Assembly (NCBI RefSeq): GCF_003725535.1
Contig: NZ_RJSF01000009.1
Span: 14,321 to 78,320, forward strand
Length of the DNA: 64,000 nucleotides
Direction of reading: 5' to 3'
Source of the DNA: Nocardioides pocheonensis
GTDB lineage: Bacteria; Actinomycetota; Actinomycetes; Propionibacteriales; Nocardioidaceae
The position numbers and the translations under genes are program-made. A model generated the notes under the pieces. It did not search any database and was not told the DNA's origin. It saw only the letters and a program-made list of their open reading frames with translations. Positions 32,751-51,843 of the stretch are shown here, piece by piece; position 1 is the stretch's first letter; every line of letters begins with the position of its first letter.

Positions 32751-34837
32751 GCCCCGTCCTTCCCGTTGACTCCCAGCGGCAGCACCGCCCGGACGACCGT
32801 CCCACCCGACGGCGGGCAGCTGACCTCGGTGTGCCCGCCCAGCTCGGCCGCACGCTCGCGCACCGACAGCAGGCCGACCCCGGCCTGCACGTCCGCGCCG
32901 ATGCCGACCCCGTCGTCGGCGATCTCCACCACCAGCTCTGTACCCGTCCGCTCCAGCCGCACCCGCGCCGAGCCGGCCTGCGCGTGCCGCGCGACGTTGG
33001 TCAGCGACTCGGCGACGATCCGGTACGCCGCGACCTCGACCGCGGCCGACAGCGTGCCGAGGTCGGCCGCCTCCACGGACACCGGCAGCTGCTGGTGCTC
33101 GGCGAGCTGGCGCACGGCTCCGACGAGGCCGCGGTCGTCGAGGGCCGGGGGCCGCAGCTCGTGCACGAGGCGGCGTACGTCGGCGACGATCTCCTGCACG
33201 TGGTCGCGCACCGTGTCGATCTGCGCGGTCGCGCCGTCCGGGTCGGACGACACGAGCAGCCGCGCGGTCTCGAGCTGGTAGACGACGCCGGCCATCGCCG
33301 GACCCAGGCCGTCGTGCAGGTCGCGCCGGATCCGCCGGCGCTCCTCCTCGCGCGTGGTCACCAATCGCTCGCGGATCGCCTGCAGCTCGTCGGCGAGCCG
33401 GCTCGTGCGGGCGGCGGTCGCGGCCTGCCGCACCAGGTCGCCGAGCAGCTTCTCGTCCCGGCTGGACAGCCGGCTGCGCATCCCGCGCGCCGGCAGCACC
33501 AGCCGGCCGACCTCGGCCTCGCGGTAGGTGATCGGCAGCATGCGGGTCTGCGTCGGCCGGTCGCCGTACGTCGCGGTGAGCCGCTCGCCGCCGGGGCGGT
33601 CGACCTCGACGGCGACATACCCGATCCCGAAGGCGTCGGCGACCGCCTGTGCGACCGCGGCGAGCTGGGCCGGTCCGTCCTCGATCGACTCCAGGCTGGC
33701 CGCGAGGCCGGCCATCACGTCGTACCGGTTGCCGCGGCTGCCGAGCACCCAGCCCTGCACCAGGCGGGACAACCGCTGTCGCAGCGGCCCGTACGCGAGC
33801 GCGGTGACCAGCAGCACGACCGTGACCAGCTGGCGCTGGCCGAGGTCGCCGAGCGCGTGCGAGAGCAGGGCGACGACGAGCAGGTCGACCCCGAGCAGGC
33901 TCAGGGCGACGGCGCCGAGCACGAGCGTGCGGACCAGCAGGTCCTCGACCGGTACGACGGTCGGCCGCACCACCCCGACGGTCATCGCCGCGACCGGCAG
34001 CACCGCGACGGCGACGATCACCGCGTCGACGGCCGACCCGAGGTCCAGGAGGCCTACCGCCGTGAGCGTCAGCGCCATCACCAGCACGGCCCAGATCAGC
34101 CAGCGCATCCGGTCGCGGTCGGCGGCCGTCGACCGCCGGTAGCGCAGCACGGCGCTGACCATCGCGAACAGGAAGCCCGCGATGGTCAGCACTCCGGTCA
34201 CCGGCCGGAGGCCGTCGGCCGAGGCGAGCGGCGACAGCGTCAGGTAGTTGAGGTCGACCTCGGGTGGCAGGTGCGCGACGTCGGGCGCGTTGGTCGCAGG
34301 CGTGAGCACCACCAGCGCGGCGGCCACGACCATGCCGCCGAGCGCCGCGATGCCGAGGCGACCCAGCCAGCCCGGGAGGAACCGGCCGGTCGGGAAGATG
34401 AGGAGCAGCAGCGCGATGCTGAGCGGGAGCACGGAGCCGAAGCGGTTCAGGAACCACAGCGCGAGGTTCGCCCCAGGATCGATCCCGTCGGCGCTGATCG
34501 ACACGCGCACGTAGGACTGCGAGAACCCGTCCAGCACCCAGACCGCCGCGATCGGGAGCAGCGCCCAGCCGAACCGCTGCCGCGGGTCGTCCCGCGTCAC
34601 CAGCAGCGCGCACAGGGCGATCGCCAGACCGCCGACGGCGTACGTGACGCCGTACCCCTCGGCCAGGTCGGCTCCTGGCCCGTGGTCGGGCCCGGTGACG
34701 TCGAGCACGAGGGACGCGGCGACGAGCAGCAGGCTGGCGACCGCGGTCAGCCAGGCCGCGACGTACGCCGCCCGCGGCGCGCGCCGAAGGCCCGGCATCG
34801 TCGATGCCGGGCCTTCGGACGTGATGGTGGTGCTCAT
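32747..34837 (-). CDS. Membrane histidine kinase (HisKA_3)
   Basis: 696 aa. About ten N-terminal membrane helices (20-360), a GAF-like segment (about 380-480), then HisKA_3 with [21 protein letters not shown] (phospho-His in DLHDGLG) and HATPase_c with ESLTNVARHA, ADDGVGIG and GVGLLSVRERAAELGG. It partners the response regulator that follows by overlap. A 35-nt perfect palindrome lies across codons 7-18. It uses ATG at 34837, where the signal-anchor region begins. Confidence 0.86.
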   Translation of the reverse strand: MSTTITSEGPASTMPGLRRAPRAAYVAAWLTAVASLLLVAASLVLDVTGPDHGPGADLAEGYGVTYAVGGLAIALCALLVTRDDPRQRFGWALLPIAAVWVLDGFSQSYVRVSISADGIDPGANLALWFLNRFGSVLPLSIALLLLIFPTGRFLPGWLGRLGIAALGGMVVAAALVVLTPATNAPDVAHLPPEVDLNYLTLSPLASADGLRPVTGVLTIAGFLFAMVSAVLRYRRSTAADRDRMRWLIWAVLVMALTLTAVGLLDLGSAVDAVIVAVAVLPVAAMTVGVVRPTVVPVEDLLVRTLVLGAVALSLLGVDLLVVALLSHALGDLGQRQLVTVVLLVTALAYGPLRQRLSRLVQGWVLGSRGNRYDVMAGLAASLESIEDGPAQLAAVAQAVADAFGIGYVAVEVDRPGGERLTATYGDRPTQTRMLPITYREAEVGRLVLPARGMRSRLSSRDEKLLGDLVRQAATAARTSRLADELQAIRERLVTTREEERRRIRRDLHDGLGPAMAGVVYQLETARLLVSSDPDGATAQIDTVRDHVQEIVADVRRLVHELRPPALDDRGLVGAVRQLAEHQQLPVSVEAADLGTLSAAVEVAAYRIVAESLTNVARHAQAGSARVRLERTGTELVVEIADDGVGIGADVQAGVGLLSVRERAAELGGHTEVSCPPSGGTVVRAVLPLGVNGKDGA
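34784..34818. repeat. 35-nt perfect palindrome at the kinase 5' end
   Basis: Two 17-bp arms (34784-34800 and 34802-34818) around one central base. The segment encodes residues 7-18 of the kinase. It would form a strong mRNA hairpin just after the start codon. Confidence 0.75.
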
Positions 34838-34866
34838 GGGTGGTCGTACCGTAAGCCGTCGGCCGC

Positions 34867-35598
34867 TCAGGCGTTCGCGGAACGGTGCGCCCGGTCGCCG
34901 ACCAGGAAGCCCACCGAGGTGACGACGAGCCACAGCGCGGCGATCGGGCCGGCCAGGTACTCCAGGGGCGAGATGCCGACCAGCATCGCCAGACCGCCCA
35001 TGACCAGGCCGACGCGGCCGATCCAGCGCGGCACCACGGACAGGCGGCTGGTGGCGTAGACGGCCACACCGGCCAGGCCGGCGAGCACCCACACCCACGG
35101 GATGGTGCCGATCCAGTTGTTGTAGAACGACGCGGTCGAGTCGGGGATCGTCGGCCCGTCCCCGACGCCGAGCGGCATCATGATCTCGGTGTCGAGCCCG
35201 GCACCCATGACGGACACGACCGCCGTGCCGAGCAGCCCGGCGAACGCGACCGTCGGGGCGATCGAGTCACCGGCACCCCGACGGAGCCGGCGGAAGAGCC
35301 CGGCCGCGAACACGACCATGAGCACCGCGCCGAGCGTGGTGATCGAGTGGAAGGCGAACAGCACGCCCGCCTTGTGCTCGAGCGCGTTCGCGACGCCGTC
35401 GGTGGTCCCCTTGAACTCGTCGCGGTAGACGACGTCCACCATCGAGGAGGTCACGATCGTGGCGACGCCCAGGAGGCCGGCGCCCAGACCGCTCAGGGCC
35501 CACAGGCGGGAGCCGCTGGGGGTGGTGGTCGCGGTGCGGTCGTCCTCGAAGCTGAGGTCGGAGCGGACCGGGTTGCTGGTGGCGACATGAGTGGACAC
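34867..35598 (-). CDS. Hypothetical multi-pass membrane protein
   Basis: 243 aa. A polar N-terminus of about 30 residues, then six hydrophobic segments with a conserved-looking MVDVVYRDEFKGTTDGVANALEHKAG stretch split over a loop. Family not recognised. GTG start with AAAGGA upstream. It is 29 nt upstream of the kinase gene on the same strand and could belong to that operon, perhaps as a sensor accessory. Confidence 0.65.
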   Translation of the reverse strand: MSTHVATSNPVRSDLSFEDDRTATTTPSGSRLWALSGLGAGLLGVATIVTSSMVDVVYRDEFKGTTDGVANALEHKAGVLFAFHSITTLGAVLMVVFAAGLFRRLRRGAGDSIAPTVAFAGLLGTAVVSVMGAGLDTEIMMPLGVGDGPTIPDSTASFYNNWIGTIPWVWVLAGLAGVAVYATSRLSVVPRWIGRVGLVMGGLAMLVGISPLEYLAGPIAALWLVVTSVGFLVGDRAHRSANA

Positions 35599-35718
35599 GG
35601 TGTTTCCTTTCTGGTCGGCCGGGGCACGTCGCCTCCGGCAGTGGCCAAACCGTGCCGGGCCCGCTGTCCCGTTGCACAGGGACAACGGGGCAAGGGTTTG
35701 TCCCGTCGTCGTCGGCGG

Positions 35719-38175
35719 TCAGGCGAGGCGCTGGGCGAGGTACGGCGCCGTGCGGCTGTCGCGCGACCGGGCGACCTGCGCCGGCGTGCCGGTCGCGACC
35801 ACCTGGCCACCGGCGTCGCCGCCGCCCGGGCCGAGGTCGATCACCCAGTCCGCCGTGGCGATCGCGTCCAGGTCGTGCTCGACCAGCACGACCGTGTTGC
35901 CGACGTCGACGAGGCGGTGCAGCTGGCGCAGCAGCAGCGCGATGTCCGCAGGGTGCAGCCCAGAGGTCGGCTCGTCGAGCAGGTAGAGCGCGTGCCCGCG
36001 CCGGGCGCGCTGCAGCTCGGTCGCGAGCTTGATCCGCTGGGCCTCGCCTCCGCTGAGCTCGGTGGCCGGCTGACCGAGCCGGAGGTAGCCGAGCCCGACG
36101 TCGCGCAGGGTCTCCAGGCTCCGCGACGCGGCCGGGACGTCGGCGAGGAACTTCGCGGCCTCGTCGACCGACAGCGCCAGCACGTCGGCGATCGACTTCC
36201 CCTCGTAGGTGACCTCGAGGGTCTTCTCGTCGTACCGCGCCCCGTGGCAGGTCGGGCACTTGGCGTACGTGCCCGGCAGGAACAGCAGCTCGACCGCGAC
36301 GAAGCCCTCCCCCTGGCAGGTCTCGCACCGACCCTCCGGCACGTTGAACGAGAACCGTCCGGCCGAGTAGCGCCGCCTCCTCGCCAGCGGCGTCGCGGCG
36401 AACAGCTTGCGGACCGTGTCGAACATCCCTGTGTACGTCGCCAGGTTGGACCGTGGCGTCCGGCCGATCGGGCGCTGGTCGACGACCACGAGCCGGTCGA
36501 ACGCGTCCAGGCCGCTGACGTCGTGGACGTCGACCTCGAGCTCCGCCGCGTCCGGGTCGTCGGGGGCCAGGCCGAGGTGGCAGCGGACGACCTCGGCAAG
36601 CACCTGGGTCACCAGCGTCGACTTGCCGGAGCCGGACACGCCGGACACGGCGGTCAGCACGCACTGCGGGACGTCGACCGAGACGTCTTCGAGGTTGTGT
36701 CGGGAGACGCCGCGCAGGTGCAGCCAGCCGTGCGGCTCGCGCAGCGTGTGCTCGAACCCGGCTGCCCGACCGAACAGGTACGCGCTGGTCGCGGACTCCG
36801 CGACGTCCTCGAGGTCCGCGACCGGCCCGGAGTGGAGGACGCGCCCGCCCTCCTCACCGGCACCGGGGCCGATGTCGACGACCCAGTCGGCGCGGCGTAC
36901 GACGTCGAGGTCGTGCTCGACCACGAACAGCGAGTTGCCCGACGCCTTGAGTCGGCCGAGCACGTCGAGCAGCGGCTCGGCGTCGGCCGGGTGCAGGCCG
37001 GCCGAGGGCTCGTCGAGCACGTAGACGACGCCGAAGAGTCCCGACCGCAGCTGGGTCGCGATCCGCAGCCGCTGCGCCTCGCCCGGCGAGAGCGTGGTCG
37101 AGGAGCGGCCGAGACTGAGGTAGCCGAGCCCGAGGTCCAGCAGCACCTGGATCCGGGCGACCAGGTCGGCGCAGATCCGCACCGCCACCTCGCTGGTCTC
37201 GCCGGAGCCTGCGGTCGGGACCGCTGCCCCCGGGTTCGCCAGCTCGGCGATCGGCCGCAGCAGGTCGGCAACCTGGGCCAGCGACATCGCGTTGACCTCG
37301 GCGATCGAGTGGGCGGCGAAGCTCACCGCGAGCGCCTCGGGCCGCAGACCGCTCCCGCCGCAGACCGGGCACGGCACGCTGCGGACGAACCGCAGCGCCT
37401 TCTCGCGCATCCGCTCGCTCTTGGAGTCGGCGAGCACGTGCATCACGTGCTTCCGCGCGCTCCAGAACGTCCCGTAGTAACCGTAGTCGACCCGGTCGCG
37501 CTCCGGCTCGACCAGCACCGACGGCTGCTCGTCGGTGTAGAGCAGCCAGTCGCGGTCCTTCTTGCGCAGCCGGTGCCACGGCTTGTCGATGTCGATGCCG
37601 AGGCCGCTGACCACGCTGCGCAGGTTCGCGCCCTGCCAGGCGCCCGGCCAGGCCGCGATCGCACCCTCACGGATGGTCAGCGACGGGTCCGGGACGAGCA
37701 GGTCCTCGGCCACGTCGTGCACGACCCCGAGCCCGTGGCAGTGCGGGCACGCCCCGGCCGCGGTGTTCGGGGAGAAGTCCTCCGCCTCCAGCCGCCGAGC
37801 ACCCTTCGGGTAGGTGCCGGCGCGGGAGAACAGCATGCGCAGCAAGTTCGACAGCGTCGTGATCGTCCCGACCGTCGACCGGCTCGACGGCGCCCCGCGT
37901 CTTTGTTGAAGCGCGACCGCGGGAGGCAGCCCGGTGATCTCCTGCACGTGCGGAGCCCCGACCTGCTGGAGCAGCCGCCGCGCGTACGGCGCCACCGACT
38001 CGAAGTACCGCCGCTGCGCCTCGGCGTACAACGTGCCGAACGCCAGCGACGACTTCCCCGACCCCGACACCCCGGTGAACGCCACCATCGCGTCCCGCGG
38101 GATGTCGACGTCGACGTCCCGCAGGTTGTGTTCACTGGCGCCCCTGACGTGCACGAAGCCGTCGAGGGAAGTCAC
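35719..38175 (-). CDS. Excinuclease ABC subunit A-like ATPase (class II UvrA)
   Basis: 818 aa, shorter than housekeeping UvrA (about 950). Two ABC modules: GVSGSGKSSL and LSPGEAQRLRI, then GVSGSGKSTL and LSGGEAQRIKL, plus zinc-finger pairs CPHCHG, CPVCGG, CETCQG, CPTCHG. The shorter first half fits class II UvrA, which lacks the UvrB-interaction domain and is linked to tolerance of DNA-binding drugs. A classical repair role is the alternative. GTG start without a clear ribosome site. Confidence 0.85.
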   Translation of the reverse strand: MTSLDGFVHVRGASEHNLRDVDVDIPRDAMVAFTGVSGSGKSSLAFGTLYAEAQRRYFESVAPYARRLLQQVGAPHVQEITGLPPAVALQQRRGAPSSRSTVGTITTLSNLLRMLFSRAGTYPKGARRLEAEDFSPNTAAGACPHCHGLGVVHDVAEDLLVPDPSLTIREGAIAAWPGAWQGANLRSVVSGLGIDIDKPWHRLRKKDRDWLLYTDEQPSVLVEPERDRVDYGYYGTFWSARKHVMHVLADSKSERMREKALRFVRSVPCPVCGGSGLRPEALAVSFAAHSIAEVNAMSLAQVADLLRPIAELANPGAAVPTAGSGETSEVAVRICADLVARIQVLLDLGLGYLSLGRSSTTLSPGEAQRLRIATQLRSGLFGVVYVLDEPSAGLHPADAEPLLDVLGRLKASGNSLFVVEHDLDVVRRADWVVDIGPGAGEEGGRVLHSGPVADLEDVAESATSAYLFGRAAGFEHTLREPHGWLHLRGVSRHNLEDVSVDVPQCVLTAVSGVSGSGKSTLVTQVLAEVVRCHLGLAPDDPDAAELEVDVHDVSGLDAFDRLVVVDQRPIGRTPRSNLATYTGMFDTVRKLFAATPLARRRRYSAGRFSFNVPEGRCETCQGEGFVAVELLFLPGTYAKCPTCHGARYDEKTLEVTYEGKSIADVLALSVDEAAKFLADVPAASRSLETLRDVGLGYLRLGQPATELSGGEAQRIKLATELQRARRGHALYLLDEPTSGLHPADIALLLRQLHRLVDVGNTVVLVEHDLDAIATADWVIDLGPGGGDAGGQVVATGTPAQVARSRDSRTAPYLAQRLA

Positions 38176-38281
38176 CCGCGCTCGTTACCCGATCGCCCCG
38201 TCCGCACGCCCCGGCGCGCGCTTCGCCGGATCCTGATGGCCCTCTCGAGGAGATCTTGATCCTCGCTCCACCGACCGCGCA

Positions 38282-39478
38282 TCACGGAATGAGCCACTCC
38301 ACGCTCTCGCCTGAGCCCAGGCCCGTCTGCACAGACACGCGTACAAGCTTCGCTCCATCCGGCACCGCGAAGACGACGAGACCGCGCTGTGCCTTGCCGG
38401 GGCGCAGGTTGAACGCCGCCGGCATGAGCTCGCTGGCAGGAAGCGCGGCGTAACTACCGACGCCGGCGTGCTGGCCGTTCGACAACAACGCGGAGAAGCT
38501 CAAGTACGGCACCGCAGCACCCCACATCCGGTCGCCGTCGTTGCGGATGGTGTAACGCACACCGACCAGGTGTTCGCCGCGGTGCAGGGCAACGCCTAGG
38601 TCCGTCATGGCCACGCGCGTCACTCCGTCGGCCCGGACCCGAAGTGCGGGGTGCGACTCTGTCGCCGCCACGCGCACCACCTCTCCAAATGTGGGCTCGG
38701 ATGCTCCTGGAGTGTCCCCTCCGCCGTTGCGGCTGTGCGTCGCGCCGGCGTCGATCCCTTTGAGCACCACGCCGATAAGACCGACCGCGAACAAGAGGCC
38801 AACCAGGATGAGGAGCAGCCCACAGCCCGCCTTGCCCAGACGGAGCGCAACGTTCCTGGAAATGGGTGGCCGAGGCTGAGGAGGGCTGGGCGGAGGCCAT
38901 GCCTGGGACACGGACTGAGCTGTCACCGGCCGCCGGGCAGAGGTCAGCTGCCACTGCAGGATCGTGACGGCGCGCCTGATCGACTCCGGCCCGAGGATCG
39001 GAGGCATGGCTGCTAGCAGCGCCGCGAGATTCGAGGTCGAACAGATCGTCACGCCTCGTGCCTGCACATCGATCGGCTCAGGCCGGACAAAGCAGAGCAC
39101 TGGCGTAGCCGGCAGTCCCTGGAGTAACTGAGTGACCGCCAAGGCTGCGTCGGCAGCTGATGCGACTTCGCGCTCTCGACGTCGACCGGACTGATAGAGC
39201 ACCCCATCGCTTACCCGGATGTCTCCGGTCCAATTCTTGCTGTCGATGACGAAGACACCACCGGGACCGACGACAACGTGATCGATGTTCGCTCGCTGGC
39301 GTCCCGGCCACCGCACGTCGTGGAACGTGGTCCAGCCGCGAGTGCTCAGCGTGGCCAAGGCGGCCGCCGTGGCCGCTTCTCCTTGCGCACCGCGCTCCCA
39401 CAGCGCGGCGCTCCGCTCCAGTCGTGCAGCCTTCTCGCGTTGGCGTCGCGCGATATCGCGAGCCGAGTCCCCCGCCAT
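38282..39478 (-). CDS. NERD-domain membrane protein, candidate defence component
   Basis: 398 aa. Same layout as 22706-23887: coiled N-terminus, NERD domain with E34, D66, D79 and K81 in RQRANIDHVVVGPGGVFVIDSK, a membrane helix (about 220-245), and a beta-rich DUF4352-like domain. NERD is a nuclease-related PD-(D/E)XK fold. GGGGGAGG precedes the ATG. It diverges from the PLD-helicase gene across only 97 nt. Its codon use is less G/C-biased than the first paralogue, suggesting transfer with the island. Confidence 0.78.
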   Translation of the reverse strand: MAGDSARDIARRQREKAARLERSAALWERGAQGEAATAAALATLSTRGWTTFHDVRWPGRQRANIDHVVVGPGGVFVIDSKNWTGDIRVSDGVLYQSGRRREREVASAADAALAVTQLLQGLPATPVLCFVRPEPIDVQARGVTICSTSNLAALLAAMPPILGPESIRRAVTILQWQLTSARRPVTAQSVSQAWPPPSPPQPRPPISRNVALRLGKAGCGLLLILVGLLFAVGLIGVVLKGIDAGATHSRNGGGDTPGASEPTFGEVVRVAATESHPALRVRADGVTRVAMTDLGVALHRGEHLVGVRYTIRNDGDRMWGAAVPYLSFSALLSNGQHAGVGSYAALPASELMPAAFNLRPGKAQRGLVVFAVPDGAKLVRVSVQTGLGSGESVEWLIP

Positions 39479-39575
39479 ATTCCTCCCCCTGCAGGCAACT
39501 CACGCTAGGGGACCGCACGCGGCCGCACGGGCAATTCCCCTGAAATCGTCCGATCGGCCTGGCAAGCTCGCGCGC
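39479..39575. promoter_or_regulatory. Divergent promoter region, NERD / PLD-helicase
   Basis: The 97-nt gap must hold promoters for both genes. No obvious palindrome. The shared region implies co-regulation of the two divergent genes. Confidence 0.4.
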
Positions 39576-42500
39576 ATGACCTCACCGCTAAGTGAGGGCC
39601 TCCATGAGGCCCTCCTGACGCGTGAGCTCCAGGGCGCCTTATCTCGGGAGACCACGCTCCTGCCAAACCTCGGTCGAGTCGATCCCGAAGATCAGGTGCA
39701 CGTCCTCGCGCGTCATCTCGCCTCGGCCGCGCTGCGGCGCCTCGAAACCGTGCGCGACCCCGCGAAGCGGCTGGAACTGGCCAACGCGCTCCTGGCTCAC
39801 ATCGCCGATGATTCCCAGCTCGTGATCGATCCAGTGGAGCAACTACAAGCGCTGCGCCCTCCTGCTCGGCCGGGCAGCGTGTCCCGTTACACCGAGCGAC
39901 CACGTACGCCGCTCAACGACGCGGCACTCCTCACGAATGCGCACGGCGAGCCCTCATTGGCCGCTGAGCTCCGGGCCGAGCTCGATTCGGCTGACTCCGT
40001 CGACCTGCTCTGCGCGTTCGTCATGTGGCACGGCCTGCGCCTTCTCGAGAAGCAGCTCGCCACACTCAAGGCGGCCGGCATACCCCTGCGCGTCATCACG
40101 ACGACCTACATCGGAGGCACAGAGCGTCGCGCGCTCGACCGGCTTGTTCGCGAGTTCGGTGCCGACGTTCGCGTGCAATACGACGCAGCGCGGACTCGTC
40201 TGCACGCGAAGGCCTGGATCTTCCATCGCAACACCGGCTACGACACGGCGTATGTCGGCTCGTCTAACCTCACCACCAGCGCCATGTTGGAAGGTGTCGA
40301 GTGGAACGTGCGGCTGAGCAACGCGGCGACGCCGGCGCTGATGCAGAAGTTTCGCGCGACCTTTGACTACTACTGGAACGCCGGTGAGTTCGAGCCCTAC
40401 GACCCTGACCGGGACGGCGAACGGCTTGACCAGGCGCTTGCGCAGGCGCGGGGCGGGAAGCGCAGCGACCGAGTCACGATGTCTCTGTCGGGCTTGGAGG
40501 TCCGGCCCTTCTCGTACCAGCAAGAGATGCTGGACATGCTCGAAGTCGAACGAATCGTGCACGATCGCCACCGCAACCTCGTCGTCGCGGCGACCGGAAC
40601 CGGAAAGACGGTCATCGCGGCGCTCGACTACCGCGGCCTTGTTGAGGGAGCAAACGGCCGCCGCTTAACACTGCTGTTCGTCGCCCACCGCAAAGAAATC
40701 CTTGAGCAGTCCCGTCGCATCTACCAAGAGGTCCTCGGTGACGCGAGCTTTGGCGAACTGTACGTCGGCGGTGCCCGACCAGACACGTGGCAACACGTCT
40801 TCGCGAGCGTTCAGTCCCTGACGTCGTACGGCGTTCCCAACCTTCCCGCAGACGCCTTCGACATCGTGGTGATCGACGAGTTCCACCACGCCGAAGCGCG
40901 CACCTACCGTCGCATCCTCGATCACTTGAAGCCACGAGAATTGCTCGGGCTTACTGCGACGCCGGAACGAGCGGACGGGGTCGACGTTCGCAGCTTCTTC
41001 GACGGGCGCACTGCAGCAGAGCTGCGACTTTGGGACGCATTAGGCGCCGACCTTCTGTGTCCGTTCCATTACTTCGCAGTCGCGGACGGCACCGACCTCA
41101 GGACCGTGAAGTGGAGTCGTGGACGCTATGACGAGGCCGAGCTGGACAACGTCTTCACCGGCAACGACGTCCGCTCACGGATCGTGCTGAGCCAACTTCG
41201 CGACAAGATCTCGGATCTGAGTGCGATGCGTGCCCTCGGGTTCTGCGTCAGCGTTGCACACGCGGAGTACATGACACGCGTCTTTAACGACGCTGGTGTC
41301 CCAGCCAAGACTGTGACGGGAGCGACCGCCCCGCACGAACGGGAACTGGCCCTTCGAGAGCTTCGCGACGCGAGCGTCAACGTGCTCTTCACCGTCGACG
41401 TCTTCAACGAAGGACTCGATGTGCCGGATGTCGACACACTTCTCATGTTGCGGCCGACGGAGAGTTCCACGATCTTCATGCAGCAGCTTGGCCGTGGGCT
41501 CCGACGCACGCGGGACAAGGCCGTCCTGACCGTGTTGGACTTCGTAGGCTTGCATCGCGCCGAGTTTCAGTTCGCCGCCCGGTACCGCGCCTTAACGGGG
41601 ATTGGCGGACGGCACCTCATCGACCAGGTCGAGAAGGGATTTCCGTTTCTTCCCTCTGGCTGCCAGATCGTCATGGACCGACAGGCACAGGCCTCGATTC
41701 TCGAGAACCTGCGCAGCCAGATCAGCACCCGCTGGGCGAAGATCGTCGCGGAGCTCAAGCGTGCGCCGGAACACGACCTCCACGGCTTCCTCGAACACAG
41801 CGGCCTTGAGCTGAGCGACATCCTCCGCCGCGGCAGTCATTCCTGGACCCGCCTGCGACGCGACGCCGACCTGCCGACCGCACCTGGATCAGTCTTGGAG
41901 GAGAAGTTGCTGAAGCGCGTGCGCGCATTTGCGCACGTCGACGATGACCTTCGCGCCCAGCACTACCAAGCATTGCTTAGTGATGAAGCGCGTTCGTACA
42001 GCGAACTCTCTCCACTCGAGCAGAAGCTCGCACGCATGCTCTTCTACTCGTTCTGGAGTGACGGCGGCGGTCATGAGACCTTCGACGCGGGCCTCGCTTC
42101 CTTGCGCTCCGAGCGAGCCACCCGGTCGGAGATCCGCTCGGTCATCGACATTGCGTTCGATGCTGCACGGCACGTCACGACCCCATTGCTCGGGGATCTG
42201 GGTGAGATCCCACTGCGAATTCATGCCCGCTATCAACGCGAAGAGATCCTCGCCGCCCTCGACTTCCCGCGGAAGCCGAACAGTTTCCGCGAGGGCGTCT
42301 GGTACTCCCCCGACCACAACGTCGACATCTTCTTCATCACCCTGAAGAAGTCAGAAGCCGACTACTCCCCAAGCACGATGTACTCCGACTACCCGATCAG
42401 TCCGGAGCTCTTCCACTGGGAGTCGCAGTCCACGACATCGGTTCAGTCACAGACGGGCCGGCGCTACCTCAACGGAACGAGCACAGTGCTGCTGTTTGTG

Positions 42501-42662
42501 CGCCACGAGCAGAAGGATGACTTCGGCACCTCGCCCTATCTGTTCCTCGGGCCCGCCACCTATGTCAGCCACACCGGAGACCGGCCGATCGCGGTCACGT
42601 GGAAGCTCAAGACACCGATGCCTACGGACTTCTTCAACTTGACGTCCGCCGTAGCTCCTTAG
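39576..42662 (+). CDS. PLD-nuclease, DEAD/DEAH helicase and DUF3427 fusion protein
   Basis: 1028 aa. N-terminal region, then a phospholipase D-like domain with one HKD motif (HAKAWIFHRNTG near 210, GSSNLTTSAM near 228). SF2 helicase core: motif I AATGTGKT (about 338), DEFHH (about 435), LTATPER, FNEGLDVPDV, motif VI QQLGRGLRR (about 636). The last 290 residues match DUF3427. Related proteins occur in many bacteria, often near restriction genes, and are thought to act in anti-phage defence; this is inference here. Third-position G+C is visibly lower than in flanking genes. No strong ribosome site upstream. Confidence 0.85.
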   Translation: MTSPLSEGLHEALLTRELQGALSRETTLLPNLGRVDPEDQVHVLARHLASAALRRLETVRDPAKRLELANALLAHIADDSQLVIDPVEQLQALRPPARPGSVSRYTERPRTPLNDAALLTNAHGEPSLAAELRAELDSADSVDLLCAFVMWHGLRLLEKQLATLKAAGIPLRVITTTYIGGTERRALDRLVREFGADVRVQYDAARTRLHAKAWIFHRNTGYDTAYVGSSNLTTSAMLEGVEWNVRLSNAATPALMQKFRATFDYYWNAGEFEPYDPDRDGERLDQALAQARGGKRSDRVTMSLSGLEVRPFSYQQEMLDMLEVERIVHDRHRNLVVAATGTGKTVIAALDYRGLVEGANGRRLTLLFVAHRKEILEQSRRIYQEVLGDASFGELYVGGARPDTWQHVFASVQSLTSYGVPNLPADAFDIVVIDEFHHAEARTYRRILDHLKPRELLGLTATPERADGVDVRSFFDGRTAAELRLWDALGADLLCPFHYFAVADGTDLRTVKWSRGRYDEAELDNVFTGNDVRSRIVLSQLRDKISDLSAMRALGFCVSVAHAEYMTRVFNDAGVPAKTVTGATAPHERELALRELRDASVNVLFTVDVFNEGLDVPDVDTLLMLRPTESSTIFMQQLGRGLRRTRDKAVLTVLDFVGLHRAEFQFAARYRALTGIGGRHLIDQVEKGFPFLPSGCQIVMDRQAQASILENLRSQISTRWAKIVAELKRAPEHDLHGFLEHSGLELSDILRRGSHSWTRLRRDADLPTAPGSVLEEKLLKRVRAFAHVDDDLRAQHYQALLSDEARSYSELSPLEQKLARMLFYSFWSDGGGHETFDAGLASLRSERATRSEIRSVIDIAFDAARHVTTPLLGDLGEIPLRIHARYQREEILAALDFPRKPNSFREGVWYSPDHNVDIFFITLKKSEADYSPSTMYSDYPISPELFHWESQSTTSVQSQTGRRYLNGTSTVLLFVRHEQKDDFGTSPYLFLGPATYVSHTGDRPIAVTWKLKTPMPTDFFNLTSAVAP

Positions 42663-42751
42663 GCACAGGCAGTGCAAGATCACGTCGGAGCGACTTCATC
42701 GCCCAACTCTGCGTCGAACGCAATGACAGCGGTCTCAAAGCCCGCAAATAC

Positions 42752-43795
42752 CTACACGTCATCGCTCTCGTTGAGCACCCAGGCACGCTTCAGCGGGATT
42801 TCTTGGCGCAAAGTCTCCGGTAGGTCGTCGTAAGCATCGAAGACCTGGTCAATCACGTCGTCGGCATCCCAGACGCGCATGGTCAATCGATCCTTTCGGA
42901 TCTCAGTTCTCGCGTCCTTGGTGATCCCTCCCCATGCGACCAGAAGTCCCTGATCGGCCCGATGAGACAACATCGCGCCCTGTAGACCGCGCACGATCGG
43001 AGCACCGACAGCACCGGGCTCGGACTTCACTTCGACGATGAGCGTGGGGGAATCGAGGCCGAGTGGTCCAGTTCCAGCGAGGATGTCGACACCCTGGTCT
43101 TTGCCGGGAGGGGAAACGTCGCAGACGAAACCGCGGACCTCCAGGATCGCCGCGACGAGCCGCGTCAGTTCATGCTCGCGAAAGTGCTTGCGCACATGGG
43201 TCCGAACGCGATCGCGGATCGTCTCGAGTGTCGGCACAGGGTCCGGGTCCGTAGGCGTATCCGCCGAATCTGTTGGGGTCTCGACCGACGTCGGGTCCTC
43301 GTGCTCGCCCGCTTCGGGGTCGAGCCCGGTCATGATCACTTGGGCAAACCTTGATTCTGCGCCATTGCGCTTGATCCTGAACACGGTCATGAGGGAGCCC
43401 AGGGAGTTTAGAAGATCTTGTCCGAGGGCCGACCGTGGCACGTCATCGCGAATCCAATCGACCTTCACCGTGTGACGCGCGGGAGCGGTCTCGTCGAGAT
43501 GCTCGTAGCCGGATGTGCAGCGGCCCATCACCAGCAAACCAGCGCCGGAGAGCGGCATAATGACGATGTCGCCAGGCTCGATCGACCGGAGGCCCCACAA
43601 CTGGCCCGCGAAGTTCGCGGCCTTGGCATTCGAGACATCAGGATTCACCGACCGGTACTTCGCCAACACATCGTCGCGGGTTGTGGCGTCCCCTAGCGAA
43701 GGGACGTTGTTCCACGCCGCGGCCGCTCGACCCTCCTCGATGCACCATTGGGCGTACGAGTTGCCGCGGCCGCCCCGGACTACCCAGACCGCCAT
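42752..43795 (-). CDS. Mrr-type restriction endonuclease with N-terminal reader-like domain
   Basis: 347 aa. N-terminal about 160 residues (AVWVVRGGRG...DIVIMPLSGAGLLVMGRC) look like a PUA/EVE-type modified-base reader. A Glu/Asp/Thr/Pro-rich linker follows (160-190). The Mrr catalytic domain carries D237 in QGVDI and E255/K257 in LIVEVKSE, the PD-(D/E)XK triad. This architecture suggests a type IV enzyme cutting modified DNA. AGGGAG precedes the ATG. It converges with the helicase gene. Confidence 0.83.
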   Translation of the reverse strand: MAVWVVRGGRGNSYAQWCIEEGRAAAAWNNVPSLGDATTRDDVLAKYRSVNPDVSNAKAANFAGQLWGLRSIEPGDIVIMPLSGAGLLVMGRCTSGYEHLDETAPARHTVKVDWIRDDVPRSALGQDLLNSLGSLMTVFRIKRNGAESRFAQVIMTGLDPEAGEHEDPTSVETPTDSADTPTDPDPVPTLETIRDRVRTHVRKHFREHELTRLVAAILEVRGFVCDVSPPGKDQGVDILAGTGPLGLDSPTLIVEVKSEPGAVGAPIVRGLQGAMLSHRADQGLLVAWGGITKDARTEIRKDRLTMRVWDADDVIDQVFDAYDDLPETLRQEIPLKRAWVLNESDDV

Positions 43796-43859
43796 ATCGC
43801 TCCCTTCGTTTGATCGCCACTTGCCCCATCAGAACAGAGTGACGCTGCACGCGGTAACG

Positions 43860-43892
43860 GCGATGGCCCGACGAGTTGCGTCGGGCCATCGC
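43860..43892. terminator. nrdJ terminator hairpin
   Basis: Perfect 14-bp stem (43860-43873 and 43879-43892) with an AGTTG loop, 14 nt downstream of the nrdJ stop on the minus strand. Confidence 0.75.
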
Positions 43893-43905
43893 ATGTTGGC
43901 GTAAG

Positions 43906-46854
43906 TCAGCTACAGCCCGACGTACTCCCGCAGCCCTCGCACACGTAGCAGCTGCCCGCCGGCCGCATCTTGGTCCCGCAGGTCATGCAGAGCGGGGAGT
44001 CGACGGCGGTGCCGGTGATCTGCTCGAGGAGCTCGGCGGAGGTGTGGGCCTGGCCGGTGTGGAGCTTGGCGGGGACCTCGCGGTCCTCGTTGCCGTGGGT
44101 GTCCTTGGTTTCGACGTCGGCGCGGTCCTCTGCGTCGGCGTCGATGGTTTCGAGGCTCGCTTCGCTTCGCACCTCAACCACCTCGTCGTGGTTCTTCAGG
44201 GACTCGGCCTCGCTGACCTCGATGGGCTCGTAGGAGCCGGTCTCGAGGTGGCGCTGGCGCTCCTCGGCGGAGTAGATGCCGAGCATCGAGCGGTCCTCGA
44301 AGGTCATGTAGTCGAGGGCCAGGCGGCGGAAGATGTAGTCCATGATCGACTGCGCCATCCGCACGTCCGGGTCGTCGGTCATGCCGGCCGGCTCGAAGCG
44401 CAGGTTGGTGAACTTCGAGACGTAGGTCTCCAGCGGCACGCCGTACTGCAGCCCGATGGACACCGCGATCGAGAAGGCGTCCATCACGCCGGCCAGGGTC
44501 GAGCCCTGCTTGCCGAGCTTGAGGAAGATCTCGCCGAGCTCGCCGTCGTCGTGGGCGCCGGAGGTCATGTAGCCCTCGGCACCACCGACCGTGAAGCTGG
44601 TCGTCCGCGACTGCCGGCTCTTCGGCAGGCGCTTGCGGAACGGCTTGTGCACCTCGACGACCTTGGTTTCGGCAGGCTCAACCCCCGAGCCGGCGGCAGC
44701 GGCGGCCGCGTTGCCGGCCATCGCCTGGTCCTTCTTCGAGGCGTCGGACTTGCCGTCGGAGAGCGGCTGGCCCACCTTGCAGTTGTCGCGGTAGACCGCG
44801 GTCGCCTTGAGGCCGAGCTTCCACGACTGCAGGTAGATGTCCTCGATCTCCTCGACCGTGGCGGTCTCGGGAAGGTTGACCGTCTTGGAGATCGCGCCGG
44901 AGAGGAACGGCTGGCAGGCCGCCATCATCCGCACGTGGCCCATCGGCTTCAGCGCCCGGGCGCCCATCGCGGTGTCGAAGACCTCGTAGTGCTCCTGGCG
45001 CAGGCCGGGGGCGTCGATCACGTGGCCGTGCTCGGCGATGTAGGCGACGATCGCCTCGACCTGCTCCTCCTGGTAGCCCATCTTGCGCAGCGCCCGCGGG
45101 ATCGTCTGGTTGACGATCTGCATCGAGCCGCCACCGACGAGCTTCTTGAACTTCACCAGCGAGAAGTCCGGCTCGATGCCGGTGGTGTCGCAGTCCATCA
45201 TGAAGCCGATCGTGCCGGTGGGCGCGAGCACGGAGGCCTGCGCGTTGCGGAAGCCGTTCTTCTCGCCCAGCTTGATCACGTCGGCCCACGCCTTGGTGGC
45301 CAGCTTGTGCACCTGGCTGTCGGCGACCGACAGGGTGCGAACCACGTCGTTGGCGGCCTGGTGCTTGCGCATCACCCGCTTGTGCGCCTCGGCGTTGCGG
45401 GCGTAGCCGTTGTACGGGCCGACGACCGCGGCCAGCTCCGCCGACCGCTTGTACGACGTGCCGGTCATCAGCGAGGTGATCGACGCCGCCATCGCGCGGC
45501 CGCCGTCGGAGTCGTAGCCGAGGCCCATCGCCATCAGCAGCGCGCCGAGGTTGGCGTAGCCGATGCCGAGCTGGCGGTAGTCGACGGTGGTCTTGCCGAT
45601 CGACTCGGTCGGGAAGTCGGCGAAGCAGATCGAGATGTCCATCGCGGTGATGATCAGCTCGACGGCCTTGGCGAACAGCTCGCCGTCGAAGGTGTCGTCG
45701 TCCTTGAGGAACTTCAGGAGGTTCAGCGAGGCCAGGTTGCACGAGGAGTTGTCCAGCGACATGTACTCCGAGCACGGGTTGGACGCGGTGATCCGGCCGG
45801 TCTCGGGGTTGGTGTGCCAGTCGTTGATCGTGTCGTCGTACTGCAGGCCCGGGTCGGCGCACTCCCAGGCGGCCTTGCTGATCTTGTGGAACAGCTCGCG
45901 GGCGTCGACGGTCTCGATCACCTCGCCGGTGCTGCGCGAGCGCAGGCCGAACTCGGTGCCGTCCTCGACCGCGCGCATGAACTCGTCGCTGACGCGCACG
46001 GAGTTGTTGGCGTTCTGGTACTGGACCGAGGTGATGTCCTTGCCGCCGAGGTCCATGTCGAAGCCGGCGTCACGCAGCGCGCGGATCTTGTCCTCCTCGC
46101 GCGCCTTGGTCTCGATGAACTCCTCGATGTCGGGGTGGTCGACGTCGAGCACGACCATCTTCGCCGCACGGCGGGTGGCGCCGCCGGACTTGATCGTGCC
46201 GGCGCTGGCGTCGGCGCCGCGCATGAAGGAGACCGGACCGGAGGCCGTGCCGCCGCTGGAGAGCAGCTCCTTGGAGGAGCGGATGCGGGAGAGGTTCAGG
46301 CCGGCACCGGAGCCGCCCTTGAAGATGAAGCCCTCCTCCTTGTACCAGTTCAGGATGGAGTCCATCGAGTCGTCGACGGAGAGGATGAAGCACGCGGACA
46401 CCTGCTGCGGCGACTGGGTGCCGACGTTGAACCAGACCGGGGAGTTGAACGAGAAGTACTGGTGGACCAGCAGCCAGGTCAGCTCGTGCTCGAACAGCTC
46501 GGCGTCGGCGACCGAGGCGAAGTAGTCGTTGTCCTCGCCGCCCTTGCGGTAGGTCTTCACGACCCGGTCGATCAGCTGCTTGAGGCTCCACTCGCGGACG
46601 TCGGTGCCGAGCGCGCCGCGGAAGTACTTGGTGGTGACGATGGTGGAGGCGTTGACCGACCAGAAGTCCGGGAACTCCACGCCGCGCTGCTCGAAGACCG
46701 ACTCACCGGTCTTCCAGTTCGTCTGGACGACGTCGCGGCGCTCCCAGTTGAGCTCGTCGTACGGGTGCACACCCTCGGTGCTGAAGACCCGCTCGATCTT
46801 CATGCCCCGCTTGCGGCCCTGCACCTTTGCGTTGCCGCTCACCGTCTCGGTCAT
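43906..46854 (-). CDS. nrdJ: Vitamin B12-dependent (class II) ribonucleotide reductase
   Basis: 982 aa. It makes deoxyribonucleotides using adenosylcobalamin. Conserved segments: FNSPVWFNVG, SACFILSVDDSMDS (redox Cys), KGGSGAGLNLSRIRS, NPCSEYMSLDNSSCNL (active-site Cys near 360), PTGTIGFMMDCDTTG, SFSIAVSIGLQYG-like segment, and a C-terminal tail CMTCG...CYVCEGCGS for thioredoxin reduction. Two insertions match the dispersed repeat: GVEPAETK (about 724-730) and VVEVRSEASLETI (about 891-903), both in linker regions. AAAGGGG precedes the ATG. Lies downstream of nrdR on the same strand. Confidence 0.92.
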   Translation of the reverse strand: MTETVSGNAKVQGRKRGMKIERVFSTEGVHPYDELNWERRDVVQTNWKTGESVFEQRGVEFPDFWSVNASTIVTTKYFRGALGTDVREWSLKQLIDRVVKTYRKGGEDNDYFASVADAELFEHELTWLLVHQYFSFNSPVWFNVGTQSPQQVSACFILSVDDSMDSILNWYKEEGFIFKGGSGAGLNLSRIRSSKELLSSGGTASGPVSFMRGADASAGTIKSGGATRRAAKMVVLDVDHPDIEEFIETKAREEDKIRALRDAGFDMDLGGKDITSVQYQNANNSVRVSDEFMRAVEDGTEFGLRSRSTGEVIETVDARELFHKISKAAWECADPGLQYDDTINDWHTNPETGRITASNPCSEYMSLDNSSCNLASLNLLKFLKDDDTFDGELFAKAVELIITAMDISICFADFPTESIGKTTVDYRQLGIGYANLGALLMAMGLGYDSDGGRAMAASITSLMTGTSYKRSAELAAVVGPYNGYARNAEAHKRVMRKHQAANDVVRTLSVADSQVHKLATKAWADVIKLGEKNGFRNAQASVLAPTGTIGFMMDCDTTGIEPDFSLVKFKKLVGGGSMQIVNQTIPRALRKMGYQEEQVEAIVAYIAEHGHVIDAPGLRQEHYEVFDTAMGARALKPMGHVRMMAACQPFLSGAISKTVNLPETATVEEIEDIYLQSWKLGLKATAVYRDNCKVGQPLSDGKSDASKKDQAMAGNAAAAAAGSGVEPAETKVVEVHKPFRKRLPKSRQSRTTSFTVGGAEGYMTSGAHDDGELGEIFLKLGKQGSTLAGVMDAFSIAVSIGLQYGVPLETYVSKFTNLRFEPAGMTDDPDVRMAQSIMDYIFRRLALDYMTFEDRSMLGIYSAEERQRHLETGSYEPIEVSEAESLKNHDEVVEVRSEASLETIDADAEDRADVETKDTHGNEDREVPAKLHTGQAHTSAELLEQITGTAVDSPLCMTCGTKMRPAGSCYVCEGCGSTSGCS
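44146..44182. repeat. Dispersed repeat, full copy inside nrdJ
   Basis: GGTTTCGAGGCTCGC then TTCGCTTCGCACCTCAACCACC-like sequence, 37 nt. It is read in frame on the gene strand as VVEVRSEASLETI, in the linker before the C-terminal cysteine domain. Confidence 0.8.
44665..44685. repeat. Dispersed repeat, short form inside nrdJ
   Basis: GGTTTCGGCAGGCTCAACCCC, the short form of the family, encoding GVEPAET on the gene strand between residues about 724 and 730. Confidence 0.65.
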
Positions 46855-46996: not shown

Positions 46997-47521
46997 TCAG
47001 CCCGTGGGCTGAGGTTCTCTACCGGTGGTTGAGGTGCGAGCGTCAGCGAGCCTCGAAACCTCCGGTACGTCGGCGGCCCGCTCCATCCGCAGCGCCGCGA
47101 TCTCGGCCTCGAAGTCGTCGGCGGACTCGAACCCGCGGTAGACGCTGGCAAACCGGAGGTAGGCCACCTCGTCGAGCTCGCGGAGCGGGGCCAGGATCGC
47201 CAGGCCCACCTCGTGGGCCGGCACCTCCGCCCAGCCGCCGGCACGCAGGGTGTCCTCGACGGTCTGGCCCAGCCGGGCCAGGTCGTCCTCGGAGACCGGG
47301 CGGCCCTTGAGCGCCTTGCGCACCCCGGCGACCGCCTTCTCGCGCTGGAACGGCTCGCACGCACCGCTGCGCTTGAGCACGGTCAGCTGCATCTGCTCCA
47401 CCGTCGTGAACCGCTTCTCGCACTCCGGGCAGGTGCGCCGGCGCCGGATCGACGTGCCGTCCTCGGCGACCCGGGAGTCGAGGACCCGGGTGTCGGTGCT
47501 GCGGCAGAACGGACAGTGCAT
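46997..47521 (-). CDS. nrdR: Transcriptional repressor NrdR, with repeat-derived C-terminal extension
   Basis: 174 aa; the family is usually 150-160. Zinc ribbon [11 protein letters not shown]...[15 protein letters not shown], then ATP-cone domain with [29 protein letters not shown]. Senses dNTP/ATP and represses nrd genes. From about residue 154 the protein reads [13 protein letters not shown], the translation of a dispersed repeat copy, then a short tail to the stop. The start at 47521 follows GAGGAGG; an upstream ATG adds 12 non-conserved residues. Confidence 0.92.
47024..47060. repeat. Dispersed repeat, copy at the nrdR 3' end
   Basis: 37-nt copy GGTGGTTGAGGTGCGAGC...GCCTCGAAACC. It supplies NrdR residues about 154-166 and pushes the stop codon downstream. 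Confidence 0.8.
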
Positions 47522-47580
47522 CGGGGCCTCCTCTCCGGGAGCGGAAGGCTCGGTCATCGAGCCTGCCGCGATGTAGAACC

Positions 47581-50597: not shown

Positions 50598-50614
50598 CCT
50601 CGACGATCGCCACA

Positions 50615-50658
50615 ACGTCATACGAATCGGTCGCCAGGACGCCCGGTTCGCATGACGT
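50615..50658. terminator. Imperfect 16-bp inverted repeat
   Basis: Arms ACGTCATACGAATCGG and CCGGTTCGCATGACGT (one mismatch, one G-T pair). It lies after the secreted-protein gene and before the lysoplasmalogenase promoter (TAGATT at 50685-50690). Terminator candidate. Confidence 0.45.
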
Positions 50659-50696
50659 CCGGGCCGCGTCGGCGTCGGGGGCACTAGATTCAACGC

Positions 50697-51386: not shown

Positions 51387-51400
51387 CCGACGTACGGTCC

Positions 51401-51737
51401 CTGCCCGCTCGCCGCACCTCCGCGCAGTAGCACCGCCCGCTCGCCGCACCCCCACGCAGCAGCACCGCCCCCTCACCGCACCCCCACGCAGCAGCACCCC
51501 CACGCAGCAGCACCGCCCGCTCACCGCCCCCCCACGCAGCAGCACCGCCCGCTCGCCGCACCTCCGCGCAGTAGCACCGCCCGCTCGCCGCACTCCCACG
51601 CAGCAGCACCGCCCGCTCGCCGCACCTCCGCGCAGCAGCACCGCCCGCTCGCCGCACCCCCACGCAGCAGCACCGCCCGCTCACCGCACCCCCACGCAGC
51701 AGCACCCCCACGCAGCAGCACCGCCCGCTCGCGCCGC
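51401..51737. repeat. 32-nt tandem repeat tract
   Basis: Nine full units of 32 nt (first one 31), two exact half-units of 16 nt (51496-51511 and 51704-51719), and a partial last unit. A unit starts CCGCCCGCTCGCCGCACC and ends CACGCAGCAGCA; an alternative ending is CGCGCAGTAGCA. The two half-units follow similar full units, hinting at slippage or duplication of a larger block. It lies between convergent genes; frames through it change with each unit, so it is not coding. Confidence 0.9.
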
Positions 51738-51747
51738 CAAAGAGAAC

Positions 51748-51773
51748 GAGGGCGGGGCACCGTGGCCCCGCCC
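51748..51773. terminator. Bidirectional terminator hairpin
   Basis: 10-bp stem AGGGCGGGGC / GCCCCGCCCT with a 6-nt loop, followed by a C/T-rich run. It separates the lysoplasmalogenase and LysM genes, which converge. Confidence 0.7.
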
Positions 51774-51843
51774 TGTCCTCTTCCCACACAGCCGACGACC
51801 CGGGTCGAGGGAGCCGTCGGACGTCTTGATCAGGCCGCGTGCC

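Follow-up and report, generated by a model that had tools for sequence, protein, structure and literature searches.

In one family of Propionibacteriales, the region 3' of nrdJ is a hotspot of defence genes. The case studied here is a 64,000-nucleotide stretch of Nocardioides pocheonensis DNA (the window), in which the genes of a NERD-domain protein, a 1028-aa PLD-helicase-DUF3427 protein (the helicase) and a 347-aa Mrr-type nuclease (the Mrr protein) form a compact block of foreign composition beside nrdJ. The enzymes of this island belong to families already known or listed as candidates. The block is likely to be cargo of the hotspot that brings together a SauUSI-type enzyme and an independent reader-Mrr type IV enzyme, with the NERD protein as an accessory or a mere neighbour.

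The NERD gene (38282..39478, minus strand), the helicase gene (39576..42662, plus strand) and the Mrr gene (42752..43795, minus strand) are followed by nrdJ (43906..46854, minus strand), which encodes a vitamin B12-dependent ribonucleotide reductase. All three island genes were found open, confirming the adjacency of three nuclease-fold genes described in the sequence-only reading of the window. The helicase starts from the ATG at 39576 and the mechanical ORF begins upstream at 39285. The NERD and helicase genes are divergent with a gap of 97 nt (39479..39575), the helicase and Mrr genes are convergent with 89 nt between them, and 110 nt separate the Mrr gene from nrdJ. A shared promoter had been proposed for the 97-nt gap; the divergent gap is present, but no match was found in the island region by a scan for sigma-70-type promoters, which leaves other types outside its scope. 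The promoter and terminator scan of the region detected none. Third-position GC (GC3) is 0.754 in the NERD gene, 0.776 in the helicase gene and 0.744 in the Mrr gene, against 0.949 (sd 0.020) in the 35 other called window genes of at least 200 codons. The weaker G/C bias once ascribed to the helicase gene is therefore real but common to all three genes, and this foreign composition agrees with the earlier view of a defence island of transferred look. Gene calling relied on a codon-score script that passes over genes of short length or unusual composition, including all three of the island.

On the basis of its sequence, the helicase is a member of the SauUSI family, whose type IV restriction enzymes depend on ATP. 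It possesses the Pfam domains PLDc_2, ResIII, Helicase_C and DUF3427, and residues 104-1026 matched the PADLOC mREase_IV model PDLC03659 with 1145.5 bits. This is the closest PADLOC model, while the model resembling SauUSI in length is PDLC03658. A profile of 23 homologues aligned helicase residues 113-1000 to SauUSI residues 30-920 (PDB 7clg, E 8.4e-117), spanning the nuclease, the SF2 motor, the coupler and the C-terminal DUF3427/SRA reader, which follow in the same order in both proteins. By single-sequence search only the nuclease and motor of SauUSI were matched, and the reader match requires the profile. The catalytic PLD residues H210, K212, N231 and E242 are invariant in 23/23 homologues and the same H, K, N and E are found in SauUSI, where H119, K121 and N143 align with the first three. 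The motor shows the motifs TGTGKT from residue 340 and DEFHH from residue 434. In the reader, D938 and W948, predicted to bind the base, are likewise invariant in all 23 homologues and align with D858 and the stacking W868 of SauUSI, for which contacts with the flipped cytosine are proposed in the model of its authors (PMC7913695). The helicase differs from SauUSI in an N-terminus longer by about 80 residues and in a valine, present in 23/23 homologues, at the position of SauUSI Tyr-831, which the same model places to touch the methyl group. Because of this replacement, the preferred mark of the helicase may differ from that of SauUSI, for whose type ATP-dependent cleavage of DNA containing Sm5CNGS or hm5C is characteristic. 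The actinobacterial ScoA3I (Sco2863) is tabulated beside SauUSI as restricting m5C DNA in PMC3874153; its placing in the same subgroup as the helicase is a guess. The SauUSI-type identity of the helicase and the hotspot beside nrdJ were both missing from the sequence-only reading.

The helicase gene has a patchy distribution, being found in 54 of 394 genomes of the class and 3 of 24 genomes of the genus. Close orthologues at one locus in every relative, the case that would have spoken against a defence island, did not arise. Together with 8 more genomes and G451, the 54 genomes of the class scan give 63 in which the gene was detected with E no higher than 1e-100, and the loci of 41 of them, roughly the top-scoring ones, were examined.

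The Mrr protein is a full-length match to PDC-S02, a phage defence candidate (PADLOC model PDLC04815, 416 bits, E 3.1e-125, residues 1-344 of 347). PADLOC gives no description of this candidate, while the fold obtained here suggests a mechanism. Pfam detected PF04471 (Mrr_cat, E 1.3e-19) and gave no match in the reader half, and PDB sequence searches with the protein and its profile gave no match. The AlphaFold2 model has a mean pLDDT of 90.2, with the reader half mostly above 90, and predicts an EVE/YTH-like reader (residues 1-158) joined to an MspJI/Mrr-like nuclease (189-332). Fold matches of the nuclease half include MspJI, at Z 12.9 across 140 residues, and AspBHI, at Z 12.3. The reader half matched MJECL36 (Z 9.9), PH1033 (9.6), the EVE-HNH enzyme VcaM4I (9.5) and YTHDC2 (9.2), so that EVE and YTH folds tie at Z 9-10, little above the middling range of the tool. 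In the D...(E/Q)xK set of the nuclease, D237 and K257 are invariant in 55/55 sequences and position 255 is E or Q (E255 here); the model alignment took in 54 of the 80 named loci, with L183 excluded for an in-frame stop. From this model and these fold matches, the protein seems to be a type IV enzyme in its own right, with an N-terminal half of PUA/EVE-like type, as had been suggested. An EVE/YTH-group reader and a nuclease in one short protein are also described for the EVE-PD(D/E)XK type IV candidates (PMC7641849). A reader of the EVE/YTH group is shared with VcaM4I, whose nuclease is HNH (PMC7897488), whereas that of the Mrr protein is MspJI-like. With MspJI and AspBHI it shares an N-terminal reader and a C-terminal Mrr-like nuclease fold with D...(E/Q)xK, but their reader is SRA-like (for MspJI, PMC12707154) while that of the Mrr protein resembles EVE/YTH.

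Relatives of the Mrr protein were kept at 80 loci from many phyla. A type I-like methylase gene is also present at 14 of these loci, with an identity of only 23-26% for some. The scan of viral contigs gave no relative. A full-length SauUSI-like gene is absent from all 80 named loci (each up to 13 kb), and the Mrr protein is absent from all other 40 helicase loci within 8 kb per side where the contig allowed. On these two absences, a conserved three-gene unit was rejected.

The identity of nrdJ is given by NCBIfam NF005122 (1616 bits, cut-off 859) and NrdJ_Z (622.6, cut-off 400). Its 3' end faces the island and nrdR adjoins it at 46997-47557. Orthologues of nrdJ were found in 21/24 genomes of the genus and 74/80 of the family. 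The relative G007 matches the window at 33554-35731 (82%) and at nrdJ, and has 9.2 kb of different DNA between these two matches. The stretch from nrdJ to the point where collinearity with G007 resumes (35732..43905) was taken as the variable slot, containing a UvrA-like gene and the three island genes. The UvrA-like gene has host composition (GC3 0.952), so that the contents of the slot are not exclusively foreign DNA. The slot of the window shows no integrase, transposase or tRNA. The repeats spanning it are short and probably due to chance (one inverted pair of 16 nt at 35064/44047, one direct pair of 22 nt with 86% at 35409/44775), and an island bounded by a tRNA or by clear repeats was rejected on these grounds. 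Varied cargo lies between the same conserved borders in relatives, some of which show empty sites. In G386, 7.1 kb with a cytosine methylase cassette precede 14 genes shared with G324 (72-97% identical), and in G324 the same run begins 1.0 kb after nrdJ, giving an emptier site. Genes of the nrdJ flanks are mostly unshared between genomes; the exceptions include G160, G332, G410 and G283, which share four genes. The SauUSI-like gene itself is situated at the nrdJ slot in five of the nine family genomes where it was seen (G000, G232, G241, G451, and G119 at 7.3 kb).

Defence genes are commoner in these flanks than elsewhere. In PADLOC tallies at E up to 1e-20, which count models and not genes, so that a single protein can match many, 20 family flanks (125 proteins) gave 128 families and 18 genus flanks (111 proteins) gave 86. 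The corresponding figures were 8 for 20 flanks of two sister families (149 proteins) and 20 for 18 arbitrary stretches (139 proteins), these stretches all being taken from genus genomes. These full tallies cover 18 genus and 20 family (L270-L289) flanks of 71, and 30 chosen flank proteins were run individually. The control matches, among those listed, are mostly housekeeping look-alikes along with a ThsB TIR-like protein and PDC-S68. In tblastn with flank-derived defence genes as queries, 26 of the 71 family flanks gave a match. The query came from a different genome in 12 of these, and the other 14 are self-matches, a bias of queries drawn from the flanks. The 18 arbitrary stretches and 20 sister flanks gave zero matches, partly as an effect of the same bias. 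Matches of a DpdE query at 30-31% in G465 and G378 were dropped as generic helicases, leaving 26 and not 28, and the G119 helicase was lost at the 8-kb limit and stands outside the 26. An nrdJ match was obtained in 74 family genomes, 66 of which supplied flanks, and five further genomes of the genus complete the 71; G014, G022, G026, G029, G034, G446, G449 and G457 were left out for an nrdJ fragmentary or at a contig end. Two of the 71 (G023, G394) are shorter than 7 kb, and among the 20 sister flanks three are truncated by a contig end.

Other antiviral systems often occupy the same spot in relatives, which gives the 3' side of nrdJ the look of a docking site for defence genes. In the sister family f2, too, the nrdJ flanks vary, with 32% of their genes found in another flank as well, suggesting that the hotspot may extend beyond one family, and in the sister genome G043 PADLOC detected a Wadjet-type JetA-like protein immediately beside nrdJ. 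Core defence hotspots have been reported in Pseudomonas aeruginosa (PMC10250203) and E. coli (PMC10121019). The recurrent gathering on the chromosome is alike, while the lineage and the border gene differ. The nrdJ flank as a defence hotspot was not found among the matches listed in searches of the open-licence PMC literature.

The NERD protein (398 aa; PF08378, E 3.8e-19) has a hydrophobic membrane-like stretch at about residues 210-247 and carries a NIDHVV...VIDSK stretch, which presumably holds its catalytic residues. The PDB sequence search with it gave no match. DUF4352, earlier assigned to this protein, gave no Pfam match in it and was found instead (E 7.5e-6) in a host-like NERD paralogue at 22706-23887, which is 39-42% identical to the island protein over its length. 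The NERD protein and the helicase had been proposed as a two-component system, in which a membrane-anchored NERD nuclease and a SauUSI-like motor nuclease would act at the DNA entry point. The recurrent linkage expected of such a pair was observed, as a NERD gene occurs no more than 4 kb from the helicase in 7/41 genomes of different families (0.16 expected), compared with 1/53 type I-like methylase places (E < 1e-20) of the same genomes (Fisher p about 0.02, computed with 53 non-hits entered instead of 52, a negligible change). The divergent layout is repeated in G017, the sole clear orthologue pair (NERD 54.7% identical over residues 1-187). The hydrophobic segment lies outside the NERD match in 5/7 (G000, G017, G085, G142, G130) and only inside it in G267 and G008, by a loose hydropathy test that 8/8 NERD proteins pass. 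However, 34/41 helicase loci have no NERD match inside 4 kb, the neighbouring NERD proteins differ in architecture (that of G267, read by eye, is joined to a UvrD-like helicase), and NERD paralogues are present in genus members without the helicase. SauUSI, moreover, works as a single polypeptide (PMC3874153). The two-component system is quite unlikely on this evidence, and it was dropped as the main reading since regular pairing of orthologous genes was not observed.

The absence of the Mrr protein from other helicase loci, the usual absence of NERD there and the diverse cargo of the nrdJ flanks are also what would be expected if the three genes were chance passengers in a variable region, with the helicase as the sole working defence gene. 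This is unlikely, as the unusual composition is common to all three genes, the catalytic residues are intact, and the Mrr protein, a candidate of PADLOC, has relatives in many phyla, some at loci that also carry type I-like methylase genes (with the low identities given above for part of them). A DNA-repair function of the helicase, either like that of RadD or together with the UvrA-like gene adjoining the block, has in its favour that RadD is the best NCBIfam match. That match reaches 111 bits, far under the cut-off of 720 and the mREase_IV score, and the RadD structure matches the motor only (314-658) while SauUSI matches nuclease, motor and reader. Together with the patchy distribution of the gene and its foreign composition, these results make repair highly improbable, and it was rejected on the scores and the motor-only match.

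As hotspot cargo with two type IV enzymes, the island very probably encodes proteins that cut chemically marked DNA. By analogy with SauUSI, the C-terminal SRA-type domain of the helicase would find 5-methyl- or hydroxymethylcytosine in incoming DNA, recognition of the mark would activate the SF2 motor to travel along the DNA, and dimeric PLD nuclease domains would do the cutting. In the Mrr protein, the EVE/YTH-like pocket would grip a modified base and the MspJI-like PD-(D/E)XK domain would cut, acting as an independent type IV enzyme which is probably NTP-independent. Two readers may widen the range of marked DNA, such as that of phages, which the cell refuses. The NERD protein, having the same composition, seems to have arrived with the block, perhaps as an accessory nuclease or only as a neighbour. 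A bolder reading, which is doubtful, takes the 3' side of nrdJ as a docking site devoted to defence cassettes in one actinobacterial family, here holding a composite barrier to marked DNA, made of an ATP-driven SRA-type and an NTP-free EVE/YTH-type reader-nuclease with a membrane-bound NERD nuclease helping at DNA entry. If true, the two reader-nucleases would cover different modifications, and defence placed beside a gene of deoxynucleotide supply could couple its expression to replication demand.

For the hotspot cargo itself, the confident fold gives PDC-S02 a concrete and testable mechanism, a modified-base reader with an MspJI-like nuclease. Type IV enzymes are also a practical obstacle to the transformation of actinobacteria with methylated plasmid DNA. 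The 3' flank of nrdJ offers a fixed address for seeking defence genes in this Propionibacteriales family, and some low-GC3 cassette proteins of these flanks, which have no PADLOC match, are candidates for new systems.

Three genes proposed by the sequence-only reading were confirmed with the same coordinates beside nrdJ. They are a NERD gene (38282-39478, minus strand; Pfam NERD, E 3.8e-19), a helicase gene (39576-42662, plus strand; Pfam PLDc_2, ResIII, Helicase_C and DUF3427) and a Mrr gene (42752-43795, minus strand; Pfam Mrr_cat, E 1.3e-19). The gaps between NERD and helicase, helicase and Mrr, and Mrr and nrdJ are 97, 89 and 110 nt, respectively. Third-position GC (GC3) of the NERD, helicase and Mrr genes was 0.754, 0.776 and 0.744 against 0.949 (sd 0.020) for the remaining 35 called genes of the window with at least 200 codons each, and therefore all three look recently acquired. 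GC calculated in 2-kb steps drops over the island from about 0.70-0.75 to a minimum of 0.61.

Comparison with relatives defined the borders of the variable DNA. The window and genome G007 both have nrdJ at one border, and at the opposite one they share DNA that extends as far as window position 35731 (82% over 2.2 kb). Between these borders the window has 8.2 kb, comprising the island and a gene for a UvrA-like ABC protein of host composition (35719-38175, 818 aa), which lies within the segment that varies against G007, while the interval in G007 consists of 9.2 kb of different DNA that includes a transposase which we take to be IS30-like. In another pair of genomes, 14 collinear genes (72-97% identical) start 7.1 kb past nrdJ behind a cytosine methylase cassette (G386) or 1.0 kb past nrdJ (G324). 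A palindromic repeat of 35-37 nt (GGTTTCGAGGCTCGC...GCACCTCAACCACC) was observed at 44146-44182 and 47024-47060; it has 58 exact copies in the genome versus none for the reversed control, also within the nrdJ and nrdR coding regions. Minus-strand ORFs built of short repeated peptides at 50112-51789 point to a tandem DNA repeat.

The helicase matched the PADLOC type IV restriction model mREase_IV PDLC03659 with 1145.5 bits over residues 104-1026, and a second mREase_IV model, PDLC03658, with 258.7 bits. As a single sequence it matched the type IV enzyme SauUSI (PDB 7clg) only at residues 118-664, and with a profile of 23 homologues the match also took in the reader domain, residues 113-1000 aligning with 30-920 of SauUSI (E 8.4e-117). 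H210, K212 and N231, corresponding to His-119, Lys-121 and Asn-143 of SauUSI, are invariant in all 23 homologues, as is E242. The catalytic string could also be located by motif search in 35 of 36 homologues; the pattern missed L054. PMC7913695 describes the SauUSI reader as an SRA fold, in which the authors' model has Asp-858 contacting the flipped cytosine, Trp-868 stacking on it and Tyr-831 touching the methyl group. In the profile alignment, read by eye, these align with D938, W948 and V908 of the helicase, each conserved in 23/23. The Asp and Trp are thus shared with SauUSI whereas Val-908 replaces Tyr-831, so the machinery appears conserved and the proposed methyl contact appears to depart from that of SauUSI.

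Among the genomes of the genus 3 of 24 carry the helicase gene, and among those of the class 54 of 394 do (E up to 1e-100), a patchy distribution of the kind seen for mobile defence genes. The SauUSI-like gene lies 107 bp from nrdJ in G232, 0.9 kb in G241, 1.2 kb in the window, 2.2 kb in G451 and 7.3 kb in G119; it is distant from nrdJ in G008 and G283, and in G017 and G027 the two genes are on separate contigs. In G057 this gene (L084, G057:C1:530495-534960) is split in three pieces, two with in-frame TGA, and is probably a pseudogene.

Across 41 helicase genomes, 78 NERD matches were obtained. In seven genomes a NERD gene was at most 4 kb from the helicase (0.16 expected), and in ten it was at most 10 kb away (0.33 expected). 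In the same genomes a NERD gene lay within 4 kb of a type I-like methylase in only one of 53 places; hence the link between NERD and helicase is real yet loose. The seven neighbouring NERD proteins vary in size and domains, and the divergent layout with a clear NERD orthologue recurs in G017 only (54.7% over residues 1-187). A host-like NERD-DUF4352 paralogue elsewhere in the window (22706-23887, GC3 0.919), at a distance of about 14 kb, shows 39-42% identity with the island NERD. A further NERD match (C36:8530-11319) is situated just ahead of the window, which spans G000:C36:14321-78320.

PADLOC assigned the Mrr protein to the phage defence candidate PDC-S02 (416 bits), and its AlphaFold2 model, built with 55 sequences, had a mean pLDDT of 90.2. 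The nuclease half of the model (189-332) resembled MspJI with Z 12.9 (rmsd 3.4 over 140 residues) and AspBHI with Z 12.3, with further PD-(D/E)XK structures also at Z 9-13. The reader half (1-158) resembled MJECL36 (Z 9.9), PH1033 (Z 9.6), the EVE-HNH enzyme VcaM4I (Z 9.5) and YTHDC2 (Z 9.2). D237 and K257 are invariant in all 55 sequences, and at position 255 there is a Q in 38 sequences and an E in 17; the commoner Q is also that of the PD-QxK site given for MspJI in PMC12707154. EVE-PD(D/E)XK type IV enzymes were predicted already in PMC7641849, which makes this architecture a known one in outline. The relatives are widely distributed, with at least 216 confirmed among 589 pattern matches; 80 were kept, including archaea and Planctomycetes, and 14 of these 80 loci have a type I-like methylase gene nearby. 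The same EVE/YTH-like reader is also N-terminal in proteins of about 500-580 aa in five genomes (L126:481-2010, L128, L129, L131, L132); two of these were scanned, and both had CBS domain matches. A C-terminal RNELxH motif spotted by eye in these longer proteins might be HEPN.

Matches to the border gene nrdJ (NCBIfam NF005122, 1616 bits) were obtained for 21 of the 24 genomes of the genus and 74 of the 80 of the family (E up to 1e-200). The window's helicase and Mrr gene are both absent 3' of nrdJ in 18 genus relatives. Genes in these 18 flanks are mostly confined to single genomes, G016 and G004 having several in common, and GC3 was below 0.85 in 37% of the 111 flank genes, the share in 18 arbitrary stretches (139 genes) being 9%. 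PADLOC matches in the genus flanks included a Druantin-type cytosine methylase in G006, a CBASS cyclase with phospholipase and E1-E2 in G015, another, weaker E1-E2 in G009, type I methylases in G018, a GmrSD/Orf5-like protein in G011 and DpdE in G019; the G010 flank has a NERD gene nearest to the host-like paralogue. Among the matches in flanks from other genera were DISARM DrmD and DrmMI in G340, HmaA in G461, type IIG in G456, an SspF-like protein in G455, a DrmD-like helicase in G300, the SauUSI-like enzyme in G451 (1205 bits) and cytosine methylases in G459 and G033; in G033 a type II restriction enzyme match adjoins the methylase. A recurrent cassette next to nrdJ (L274:970-7561) consists of a cytosine methylase, a HATPase protein, a helicase (MzaC-like match) and a DUF4420 protein; related clusters occur in G448 and G386, partially in G222 and G309, and the cassette is reminiscent of Mza. 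Low-GC3 genes close to nrdJ at L276:5129-7255, L262:1939-4110 and L261:5704-7263 gave no PADLOC match at E 1e-15 and are possibly new systems.

Defence queries derived from the flanks matched 26 of 71 family flanks within 8 kb of nrdJ (28 minus two weak helicase matches), 14 at the query's own locus and 12 through a query of another genome. They matched none of 18 arbitrary stretches and none of 20 flanks beside nrdJ in two sister families, a comparison biased by the origin of the queries, and for this reason PADLOC itself was run. Counted as families matched, of which one protein may match many, the tally was 86 (111 proteins) in the 18 genus flanks and 128 (125 proteins) in 20 other family flanks, against 20 (139 proteins), including a ThsB TIR-like match, in arbitrary stretches and 8 (149 proteins) in the 20 sister flanks. 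The sister matches were two to mad3 and one JetA/DUF2397-like protein directly 3' of nrdJ in G043 (L304:6458-7837), the latter indicating that defence genes here extend beyond one family. The site is quiet in sister family f3, where 80% of the flank genes are common to another flank; for f2 the figure is only 32%, and some activity is therefore possible in that family.

A defence hotspot 3' of nrdJ was not found in the open-licence PMC papers searched, and both restriction enzymes belong to known or candidate families. With all functions predicted from sequence and fold, the simplest account would be a mobile cassette for defence, situated in a hotspot of this lineage and carrying two restriction enzymes that act against modified DNA independently of each other.
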